Shown piece after piece: positions 26,016 to 43,545 of a DNA stretch of 64,000 nucleotides (position 1 is the first letter of the stretch; the number at the start of each line of letters is the position of its first letter). Position numbers and translations under genes: made by a program. This DNA is from Spirochaetota bacterium (GTDB lineage Bacteria; Spirochaetota; UBA4802; UBA5550). The notes under the pieces are model-generated. The model saw only the letters and a program-made list of their open reading frames with translations, was not told the DNA's origin and ran no database searches. Where the stretch lies: contig JAGNKX010000001.1 of NCBI GenBank assembly GCA_017999915.1, positions 124,001 through 188,000 of the forward strand, read 5' to 3'.

Positions 26016-28598
26016 TCACTTGCCGTAGGTGAGCTTCTTCCCGTCGGAATCGACCTTGACCTTCTGGTCCCCGAGGGATTCGCCGGAAAGGAGCCGCACG
26101 GAGAGCGGATCCAGGAGGTGCTTCTGGATCGCCCGCTTGAGGGGACGGGCCCCGAACTGCGGATCGAACCCTTCCTCGACCAGGAACTCCAGCGCCTTCT
26201 TCGTGAGCTCCAGGGAAATGCCCCGCTCCCTGAGGCGCGCCGCGACCTGGGCCAGCTGCAGCTTGACGATCTCCCCGATGTTGTTCCGGGAGAGCGGGTT
26301 GAATATGATGATCTCGTCCACCCGGTTCAGGAACTCCGGCTTGAAGTGGCCCTTGAGTTCCTGCTCGACGCCGAGCTTCCGCTTTTCGTACGGTATCGAC
26401 GCGTCGCTGATATAGGACGTCCCGATATTGGAAGTCATGATGATGAGGGTGTTCTTGAAGTCGACCACCCGCCCCTTGGAATCGGTGAGGCGTCCCTCGT
26501 CGAGGATCTGCAGAAAGATGTTGAACACGTCGGGGTGCGCCTTCTCGATCTCGTCGAAGAGGACAACCGCGTAGGGACGGCGCCGCACCGCCTCGGTGAG
26601 CTGGCCCCCCTCCTCGTATCCGACGTAGCCCGGAGGAGCTCCGATGAGACGCGCCACCGCGTGCTTCTCCATGTACTCGGACATGTCTATGCGGACGATC
26701 GCCTTTTCGTCGTTGAACATGAACTGCGCCACCGCCTTGGCGGTCTCGGTCTTGCCCACGCCGGTGGGGCCCAGGAAAATGAAGGAGCCGATGGGCCGGT
26801 CCGGGTCCTGGATGCCGGAGCGGGACCGCCTCACGGCGTTCGATATGGCCGTTATCGCCTCATCCTGTCCCACGACGCGCTTCTCCAGAAGCGCTTCCAT
26901 TTTCAAGAGCTTCTCCTTTTCCCCTTCGAGCATCCGCGACACCGGTATGCCGGTCCACCGGGACACCACGGCCGCGATCTCCTGTTCGGTCACCTCCTCC
27001 TTGAGGAGGGTCTTGCCGCCCTGCATCGACTTGAGCTTTTCATTGGCGGCCCCGAGCTGCTTTTCTAAATCTCCGATCTTGCCGTAGCGAATCTCGGCGA
27101 CAAGGTTAAGGTTGCCCTCCCGCTCGGCCCGCTGCTCCTCCATGCGGAGATGCTCGATCTGCTCCTTGATCTTGCGTATCTGGGTGATCACTTCCTTTTC
27201 GTTCTTCCACTGCGCCACCAGGCCGCTCTTGCTCTCGTTCAGGTTCGCCAGCATCTCCTTGATCTTCTCAAGGCGCTCCCGCGACGCCTTGTCCTTTTCC
27301 TTCTTGAGGGCCTCGGTTTCAATCGTGAGCTGGCGCACCTTCCGCTCGATCTCGTCGATCTCGATCGGCATGGAGTCTATCTCCATCTTGATGCGCGAGG
27401 CCGCCTCGTCCACCAGGTCGATGGCCTTGTCCGGGAGGAAGCGGTCAGTGATGTAGCGCTCGGAAAGGACCGCGGCCGCCACGCAGGCCGAGTCGGAGAT
27501 ACGCACACCGTGGTGCACCTCGTACTTTTCCTTCAGTCCCCGGAGGATCGCGATGGTGTCGTCCACCGTGGGCTCTTTGCACAGTACCGGCTGGAAGCGC
27601 CGCTCCAGGGCTTTATCCTTTTCTATATATTTCTGGTATTCGTTGATCGTGGTGGCGCCGATGCAGCGCAGGTCGCCGCGGGCCAGGGCCGGCTTCAGCA
27701 TGTTGGAGGCGTCGACGGCCCCCTCGGCGGCCCCGGCACCCACCAGGGTGTGGAGCTCGTCGATGAAGAGGATCACGTCGCCGGCCGATTCCTCCACCTC
27801 GGTGATAACGGCCTTCAGGCGCTCCTCGAACTCCCCACGGTACTTGGCGCCGGCGATGAGGGCCCCCATGTCGAGGGCGACCAGGCGCTTGTTTTTTAAA
27901 TTCTCCGGCACGTCCCCCTCGACCATGCGGCGCGCCAGGCCCTCCACGATGGCGGTCTTGCCCACGCCGGGCTCGCCGATCAGGACCGGGTTGTTCTTCG
28001 TGCGCCGCGTCAGCACCTGCATGACCCGCCGGATCTCCTCGTTCCTGCCGATCACCGGGTCGAGCTTGTTCATGCGGGCGAGCTTGGTCAGGTCGCGGCT
28101 GAACCGCTCCAGGGCGTTGTACTTGTCCTCGGCGCTCTCGTCGTCGGCGCGCTTCGATCCCCGGATGTCCTTGAGGACCTTCAGGATGTTCTCCCTGATG
28201 AAGCCGTGCTCGTTCAGGATCTTCCGGGCCTTGCCGCTCCCCTTGGAGGAGAGGGCCAGGATCATGTGCTCGGTGCTCAGGTAGTCGTCCTTCAGGCCGA
28301 CCGCCTCGTTCCACGCCTCGTTCAGCACGTCCCTCATCGACGCCGACAGGGCGCCGCCGCCGGGACCCGCCCCGACCTGCCGCGGCAGGCCCTTGACGGC
28401 CTCATCGGCCTCGTTTCTCAAATCGTTCAGGCGCACGCCGATCTTCTGCGCGATGGAGCCGAAGATGCCGCCTTCCTGGTCGATGAGGGCCAGAAGCAGA
28501 TGCTCCGGCTGTATCTCGTAATGATTCATATCGGTGGCTATATTCTGGGCCGTGTTCACGGCCTCCTGGGCCTTCAATGTCAATTTGTCCATTCTCAT
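26016..28598 (-). CDS. clpB: ClpB disaggregase (Hsp104-type AAA+ chaperone)
   Basis: 860 residues from ATG 28598, with GGAGAG 8 nt upstream; a second ATG two codons on also fits. A longer reading starting in the palindrome is not real. ClpB pulls proteins out of aggregates, working with DnaK. Order: N-terminal Clp repeat domain (to about 145), first AAA+ module with GEPGVGKTA and [10 protein letters not shown], coiled-coil middle domain (about 400-530, the ClpB hallmark), second AAA+ module with [17 protein letters not shown] and the closing [10 protein letters not shown]. Full length and intact. Its leader holds a 44-bp palindrome and a sigma-70 promoter. Confidence 0.97.
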
Positions 28599-28624
28599 CT
28601 CAATTACTCTCCAATAAAAATATC

Positions 28625-28668
28625 CGCTCCCGATAGGCGCGCAAGCGCTTGCGCGCCTATCGGGAGCG
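28625..28668. repeat. 44-bp perfect palindrome in the clpB leader
   Basis: Positions 28625-28646 (CGCTCCCGATAGGCGCGCAA then GC) are the exact reverse complement of 28647-28668, with no loop. A partial third copy (GCGCCTATGG) follows at 28671. The element lies between the clpB promoter and its ribosome binding site, so its transcript would fold into a 20-bp class hairpin about 12 nt upstream of GGAGAG. Confidence 0.85.
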
Positions 28669-28748
28669 ACGCGCCTATGGCACACCTTTTCAATTAATAA
28701 TGCAAGGATTAAAAAGCAACAGGAAAGAAACACATACAGGATAGAATA

Positions 28749-28777
28749 AAAATAAAGAAAATTGTTCGGATCGTCAA
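28749..28777 (-). promoter_or_regulatory. Candidate promoter of clpB
   Basis: Minus strand: TTGACG (28777-28772), 17-bp spacer, TATTTT (28754-28749). No CIRCE element is seen. A heat-shock sigma-factor form is not excluded. Confidence 0.5.
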
Positions 28778-28788
28778 GGGGATGTGAT

Positions 28789-28836
28789 AAAAAAACCGAC
28801 GCCCATAAAGGCGGCGCCCATGGCCGACGCCTTTAT
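28789..28836 (-). terminator. Possible terminator after the 28833-29354 gene
   Basis: Minus strand: a 9-bp stem ATAAAGGCG / CGCCTTTAT (28836-28805), then GGGCGTCGG and seven T. The T-run is 9 nt from the stem, longer than usual, so only moderate support. Confidence 0.4.
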
Positions 28837-29354
28837 AGGTTCTTCAAACGCTCTTCAATCATTTTCGCCAGGTTCTGTATATAATGGAAATTCTCGATAT
28901 CATCGACGAAAAGGATGACGCCCAGGTTGTCCTTGGTGAGAACCAGGGCCCTGTCGTTGTTATAACCGGCGAATTCCGTCATCTTTCGGATCTCCCCCTG
29001 GGCGTCCTTCATGGTATTATAAAGGATCATATAGCAGACGATATCATCCCCCAGGGGCGTCTTCTTATTGGTAATGATGGAAACATAGATGCCGGCGATC
29101 TTGCTGTAATCCCCGCCTGGATATATCTTATCGGCTAGGCGCTTGATGGCGGCCCTGTCCATCATCCAGGGATTGTCCTTCAGCGTGCTCCGGTAGGGGC
29201 CGGGGATTGTGCCGTACATGAAGCCTTCCAGTATATCGGAGTTGGTGATTTTTATCATGTCGATGACGTCCAATTTCAACTGGGAGCTCCCCTTCGATTC
29301 GGTTATCAATATCAACGACAGGAGAATACAGGTGGATAATATGGCTTTTTTCAT
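28833..29354 (-). CDS. Exported protein, unknown function
   Basis: 173 residues from ATG 29354 (GGGAG 8 nt upstream); the frame to 29411 lacks a site. Signal peptide MKKAILSTCILLSLILITES. The mature part is a mixed domain (KLDVIDMIKITNSDILEGFM, then TKDNLGVILFVDDIENFHYI near the end). No family recognised. It faces clpB from upstream on the same strand and has its own possible terminator, so it is probably a separate unit. Confidence 0.6.
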   Translation of the reverse strand: MKKAILSTCILLSLILITESKGSSQLKLDVIDMIKITNSDILEGFMYGTIPGPYRSTLKDNPWMMDRAAIKRLADKIYPGGDYSKIAGIYVSIITNKKTPLGDDIVCYMILYNTMKDAQGEIRKMTEFAGYNNDRALVLTKDNLGVILFVDDIENFHYIQNLAKMIEERLKNL

Positions 29355-29577
29355 GGCGGGTCTCCCGATTCTGAATAATTCCGCAGGCCGCAAGATAACG
29401 CACTGCTTCATCTAGTATATCGGAATATCCGGGCGAAGTCTAAAGAATTTTTTTCATGATGCCCCCGGACCGGATAGCCGGGGAGTCGGTCCTGTTCTCA
29501 TTGATAGTTATTGACTTTTTCATCAGCGCCGCGCACACTTCACACACTACTTTTCCGGTTGCCGGAGTAATGGCCCT

Positions 29578-43423: not shown

Positions 43424-43505
43424 CTCCCCTCCCTTGATGGGAGGGGCCGGGGGAGGGTGAGTGACCCAACACCCCCTCCTCGTTCCTCCCCCATCAAGGG
43501 GGAGG
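43424..43505. mobile_element. 82-bp miniature inverted-repeat element between the two flavoprotein genes
   Basis: Left end CTCCCCTCCCTTGATGGGAG (43424-43443) and right end CCTCCCCCATCAAGGGGGAG (43486-43505) are near-complementary; each end also folds on itself around TTGATGG or CCATCAAG. The end sequence is of a kind I know from many distant genomes. No frame. Lies between gene stop 43418 and the next ribosome site at 43533, so it is in the operon mRNA. Confidence 0.65.
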
Positions 43506-43545
43506 ATGTAATATTGCAACTAAAATCAAACCAGGAGAATATATC

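Follow-up and report, generated by a model that had tools for sequence, protein, structure and literature searches.

The leader of clpB, a minus-strand gene of the window (the whole stretch of DNA that was analysed, 64,000 nucleotides), carries an exact palindrome of 44 bp without a loop between a promoter-like site and the ribosome site of the gene (Table 1). The identity of clpB was confirmed by the Pfam domains Clp_N, AAA_2 and ClpB_D2-small. Its ATG lies at 28598–28596, the ribosome site GGAGAG at 28612–28607, and a promoter-like match, TTGACG-17-TATTTT, was located upstream. The two arms of the palindrome (28625–28646 and 28647–28668, 22 nt each) are 100% complementary, and among the 13 inverted repeats of the 64-kb window (at least 15 nt, within 150 bases) they formed the sole fully complementary pair. 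With equal bases, the number of 22-nt arms expected by chance is 64,000 x 4^-22, or about 4e-9; the palindrome is far beyond chance.

Table 1. Features of the clpB leader and its palindrome (positions in the window).
Feature	Positions	Strand	Basis or remark
Whole element, loop-less perfect palindrome	28625–28668		Inverted-repeat search
Conserved 28-bp core: foot ATAG, 10-nt half stem, mirror image, foot CTAT	28633–28660		C1:152633-152660 in the genome; positions 1–14 conserved
Left outer arm CGCTCCCG, beyond the foot, copy-specific, pairs with the right arm	28625–28632		
Right outer arm CGGGAGCG	28661–28668		
Partial third half CGCGCCTAT, adjoining the palindrome	28670–28678	+	
clpB, host gene of the leader, not part of the element	26016–28598	-	
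Promoter-like site of clpB	28749–28777	-	TTGACG common to 5/5 congeners

A sequence-only reading of this stretch had described a loop-less palindrome with a partial third copy beside it, placed between promoter and ribosome site and able to form a long hairpin in the transcript. Our analysis bore out this description: the partial third half was recovered, and the leader RNA was predicted to fold at -65.1 kcal/mol, with a z of -6.8 versus shuffles. The accompanying statement that the hairpin is not a T-run terminator proved unsafe, as GATATTTTTATT comes after the stem on the clpB strand and a loose consensus scan called it terminator-like. No Rfam family rose above its gathering score, and the matches were three microRNA models only (E 0.0017–0.036, far under the gathering score). 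A second, imperfect palindrome was seen at 28802–28839 (19-nt arms, 84% complementary, AAAGGCG...CGCCTTT), directly downstream of the hypothetical gene 28833–29411; the sequence that follows it on the minus strand closes with a T run, so this palindrome may be the terminator of that gene.

We then looked at the genome from which the window was taken (G000; G-numbers denote the genomes compared and L-numbers the loci). The core ATAGGCGCNCAAGCGCTTGNGCGCCTAT was found at seven sites with at most three mismatches, and a reversed-pattern control gave 0; at an eighth site (C15), 8 bases were lost at the apex. All eight copies are intergenic by our own reading of the open reading frames, and the seven outside the clpB leader adjoin unrelated genes. 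One longer frame spans the copy at L119, and was read as a shadow frame because the nearest congener retains the end of the gene next to it on the opposite strand. The clpB leaders of all five congeners are without the palindrome, and share the TTGACG and a TTGCATT stretch. At the seven other sites, the neighbouring gene was present in the congener G003 in 7 of 7 cases and the palindrome in 0 of 7. Alignment of L118 with G003 gave a clean gap, the sole exact empty site, the other sites being too diverged for an exact footprint. When empty sites were inspected for arm sequence, a 7-nt AAACCTG was noted by eye only at L119/G003, and similarities at clpB/G004.

Across the order, the core occurred at no more than three mismatches in 12 of 46 genomes, namely 1 of 20 in the same family (G000 itself) and 11 of 26 in other families, a count made with a shorter core. 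The distribution is patchy. An initial search with the ATAG version had found the own genome only, among 198 genomes; it under-counts, because the GAAG version differs by four bases. The foot is ATAG in G000; copies in other families mostly have GAAG or a one-base variant, and GTAG was found in other palindromes of G000 and G027. Exact matches to the core in the genome collection came to 10 stretches, every one of them from a MAG with the name Spirochaetota or Spirochaetes; viral contigs gave 0 matches to the core, and a 30-nt query with the core retrieved nothing from plasmids and phages at E 0.1. At L148 (3941, 3991 and 4041; G035:C46), three copies of the core, spaced exactly 50 bp, form a small tandem cluster that lies in an intergenic stretch or at the edge of genes.

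A link to a transposase was found in a related genome, G022, where the focal palindrome is found both some 120 bp upstream of a Y1 gene and in frame within that gene. The encoded protein scored 86.4 bits against NF047646 (REP-associated tyrosine transposase, NCBI; cut-off 80), and the motifs DHVH, WQ and YVARQ could be recognised by eye. Homologues of this enzyme in the order, of which ten loci were examined, came with palindromes of the same design and enzyme-specific cores, such as GAAGGCGCGATTGG in G032, ATAGGCGACGTTGC in G011 and ATAGGCGCCGATTC in G007. An in-frame internal palindrome was present at five of the ten loci; one locus had masked bases, two were without it, and two held broken genes. 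G000 itself has six Y1_Tnp matches, and the focal core was absent from all six loci. Perfect palindromes built in the same way, but on the cores TAGGGTGGGG and GTAGGGACAG, accompany the Y1 genes at L053 (G000:C24:45261) and L058 (G000:C6:195830), respectively, and that of L058 also lies inside the Y1 reading frame. These two palindromes occur at 6 and 2 places genome-wide, and their arms outside the core differ yet pair. A close homologue of the G022 enzyme was not found in G000 (best match E 2.9e-4), so the G000 copies look orphaned, and present mobility there is a candidate only.

Taken together, these findings make it very probable that the palindrome in the clpB leader is a REP-like mobile hairpin that is non-autonomous and has the double-foot design (ATAG...CTAT), as one suggestion of the sequence-only reading, a mobile palindromic repeat that landed there, had anticipated. 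The mobile reading is supported by the eight intergenic copies with a control of 0, by the patchy presence, by the absence from the clpB leaders of the congeners, and by the L118 gap in G003, and the REP link by the G022 transposase, the ten homologue loci, and the two Y1 genes of G000 with palindromes of like design. REPs are short (20–50 nt), multi-copy and mostly intergenic, and the focal repeat, with 44 bp and eight G000 copies, all intergenic, agrees with this. As in a REPtron, the repeat in G022 lies beside the gene of a REP-associated tyrosine transposase; such an arrangement of the focal repeat was not found in G000. Against the REP-like mobile reading, the foot is ATAG (as in G000) or GAAG instead of the canonical GT[AG]G, eight copies is a low number for REPs, a cognate transposase was not found in G000, a single exact empty site was seen, and the cores differ at three other orthologous places. 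By analogy with the TnpA-REP literature, an HUH/Y1 tyrosine transposase (RAYT, TnpA-REP) would recognise its cognate single-stranded hairpin and move it between intergenic sites. The eight G000 copies, for which no close cognate transposase gene was found there, would then be orphans, one of which would have landed between the clpB promoter and ribosome site after the split from the congeners.

Double-foot REPs are known from subclass 2.4 of TnpA-REP (Quentin et al., 2018, PMC6006769), for which the available part of the source gives a foot and its complement at both palindrome ends, the foot GT[AG]G, the motifs NH[IFV]H, WQ and YIxNNP, and a REP in frame inside the gene between the HuH and Y motifs. 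The focal palindrome likewise has a foot and its complement at both ends, in the same register of a 4-nt foot and a 10-nt half stem, and a palindrome lies in frame inside the transposase gene, here at 5 of 10 loci. In contrast to that description, as far as the available part goes, its foot is ATAG or GAAG, the G022 enzyme has YVARQ for YIxNNP and DHVH for NH[IFV]H, and the family has extra paired arms outside the foot. Because of the different foot and the different Y motif, we do not file the family in subclass 2.4. The proteobacterial REP/RAYT systems (REPtrons; PMC3733652, PMC2817692, PMC8266576), according to the accessible portions of these papers, consist of short intergenic palindromes with an IS200-like tyrosine transposase. 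The focal repeat is similarly short, intergenic, present in several copies and, in G022, transposase-linked, but differs from what those portions describe in being loop-less and perfectly symmetric, in its low copy number, in having no GTAG, and in its copy-specific paired arms. TIRYT elements (PMC3733652, in the portion available) combine Y1 transposase genes with inverted repeats that are unrelated to GTAG REPs, some of them self-complementary, and in these respects resemble our family; however, their TIRs partly share GGGGWSAS, and a fixed core with variable paired arms does not appear in that portion of the TIRYT description. We place this family of uncultured Spirochaetota with the REP/RAYT systems, as a variant marked by its copy-specific paired arms. 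A literature search found no title or abstract start describing REP arms of such a kind, which is not proof of absence in print.

To describe the arms, we used a set of 57 copies taken by a regular expression over the listed best-match loci, not over whole genomes; it leaves out three of the eight own-genome copies (L036, L037 and L123) and includes seven copies with unresolved genome. Most of positions 1–14 from the centre were nearly fixed. Positions 15–22 use all four bases and were paired in 56–84% of copies, compared with 24–30% when arms were combined across copies. At least six of the eight arm pairs formed in 33/57 copies but in only 36/3192 cross-copy pairings, and all eight in 27/57 and 3/3192, respectively. 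The arms, about 8–11 bp long, are thus paired within a copy and different between copies, and 7 of the 8 copies in G000 have paired arms. The other 24 of the 57 copies were without well-paired arms (fewer than 6/8), several of these pairing only to the foot. A partial extra half, like that in the clpB leader, adjoins 12/57 copies, compared with 5/112 control flanks. A comparison of orthologous sites was made under a looser rule (97 palindromes). In three orthologous pairs (L126/L064, L067/L225 and L075/L086; aligned by at least one flank at 73–83%), the core was kept and the arms were different, each still paired. At three other orthologous places (L066/L221, L035/L175 and L135/L232) the cores differ, a difference that may stem from re-insertion or an exchange of cores instead of change in place.

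Three accounts of the paired arms were weighed. We prefer, with somewhat less than even confidence, re-templating in place: the arms would be rewritten during replication by template switching between them, and fast-changing yet complementary arms would follow. This is the weakest step of the proposed mechanism, and we infer it from the three orthologous pairs with the same core and different but paired arms. Template switching makes and keeps perfect hairpins whose stems stay paired through multi-base changes (PMC8794818, as far as the available part describes it). The focal arms are alike in their perfect pairing despite changes; the hairpins of that part of the source were described for RNA genes, in contrast to the mobile repeat with its fixed core considered here.

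A second account, selection for a long hairpin, seems somewhat unlikely. Here the stem would have a structural role in RNA or DNA, for instance as a terminator, an mRNA stabiliser or a protein site, and mutations disrupting it would be purged. The core and the pairing kept at the three orthologous sites would suit this, as would the terminator-like tail of the clpB copy and the T-rich tails, which occur on a side of 12/57 copies, compared with 5/112 control flanks. However, such a tail is absent from 45/57 copies, so that a general terminator function is a weak candidate; arms that use all bases and yet pair perfectly would require numerous double changes; and the presence in the family is patchy.

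Inverted duplication of the target is distinctly unlikely in our estimate. In this account, which does not conflict with the REP reading, an inserting hairpin would use its 3' end as a primer and copy backwards into the neighbouring target DNA. Each insertion would thereby add a reverse complement of about 8–11 nt from the sequence beside it, and the arms would derive from the target. That arms differ between copies, use all four bases and still pair is in line with it, and the tandem duplication of an arm plus half-core in L086 and L135 would fit stalled or fold-back synthesis. Exact GTAGAGACGCGATT copies in G027 (L133 and L214) have 11 and 14 further paired bases beyond the foot, whereas among the cyanobacterial plasmids, of which a search with the GTAGAGACGCGATT core returned 8 records, pairing beyond the foot of the related core was seen in 0 of the 6 fetched. 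If the duplication account were true, this contrast would point to a lineage-specific host or transposase factor. Against it, two G022 copies at different places share a 10-nt arm, which indicates that arms can travel with the core, and the arms have a mild excess of C over G (95 versus 59; the sites are not independent) that is unexpected of random flanks; both observations speak against purely target-derived arms. Moreover, the arms differ at orthologous sites, and at the empty sites compared, sequence divergence was too great for one arm to be recognised as ancestral. The more specific proposal, that insertion of a double-foot REP in the spirochaete order inversely duplicates its own flank by hairpin-primed copying, appears quite improbable, and to our knowledge inverted flank duplication has no precedent as a transposition footprint. 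Pre-existing palindromic targets seem an unlikely source of the arms, since such targets would have to be perfect palindromes of up to about 28–30 bp. The varied arm sequence and the contrast with the cyanobacteria speak for a copying process, and re-templating in place remains the account that we prefer. In G027, four palindromes are of the GTAG type (L133 1968, 4409 and 6338; L214 782); their outermost arm starts with CGT in 4/4, with a variable paired stretch between the CGT end and the GTAG foot, so that the variable part would belong to the element itself.

A clpB-specific operator or RNA switch is highly improbable: the site between promoter and ribosome site and the very stable leader hairpin would suit it, but the seven further copies lie by unrelated genes, 5/5 congeners are without the palindrome, and no Rfam family was scored above gathering. 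The other two possibilities raised by the sequence-only reading, a site bound by a dimeric heat-shock regulator and an RNA element that controls clpB, gained no clpB-specific support. That reading had also proposed a genome-wide count and a comparison of clpB leaders in relatives, with many scattered copies speaking for a mobile repeat and against a regulatory reading; the eight scattered copies therefore remove a clpB-specific role on its own terms. The CIRCE/HrcA heat-shock operator has the consensus TTAGCACTC-N9-GAGTGCTAA; by eye, it was not matched in the clpB leader. For clpB itself the finding is an ordinary one, a mobile repeat in its leader that may affect expression as a by-product.

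The spread of REPs is described as unresolved in the available part of one account (PMC8266576). In the present family, a fixed, transposase-specific core and freely varying paired arms separate the part read by the enzyme from the part that is merely paired. The arms of a given copy may also preserve a record of its origin or repair.

In the congener G002 (L089 1257), a palindrome of another kind, AGAAGGCGAGGATGC/GCATCCTCGCCTTCT, lies between promoter and start of clpB, and this leader also has other repeats, which indicates that the clpB leader in the genus received more than one kind of palindrome. An imperfect, CCTCCC-rich inverted repeat of 38 nt at 43425–43506 of the window looks by eye like an insert in this G002 leader, and another repeat family may therefore be spread in the genus.
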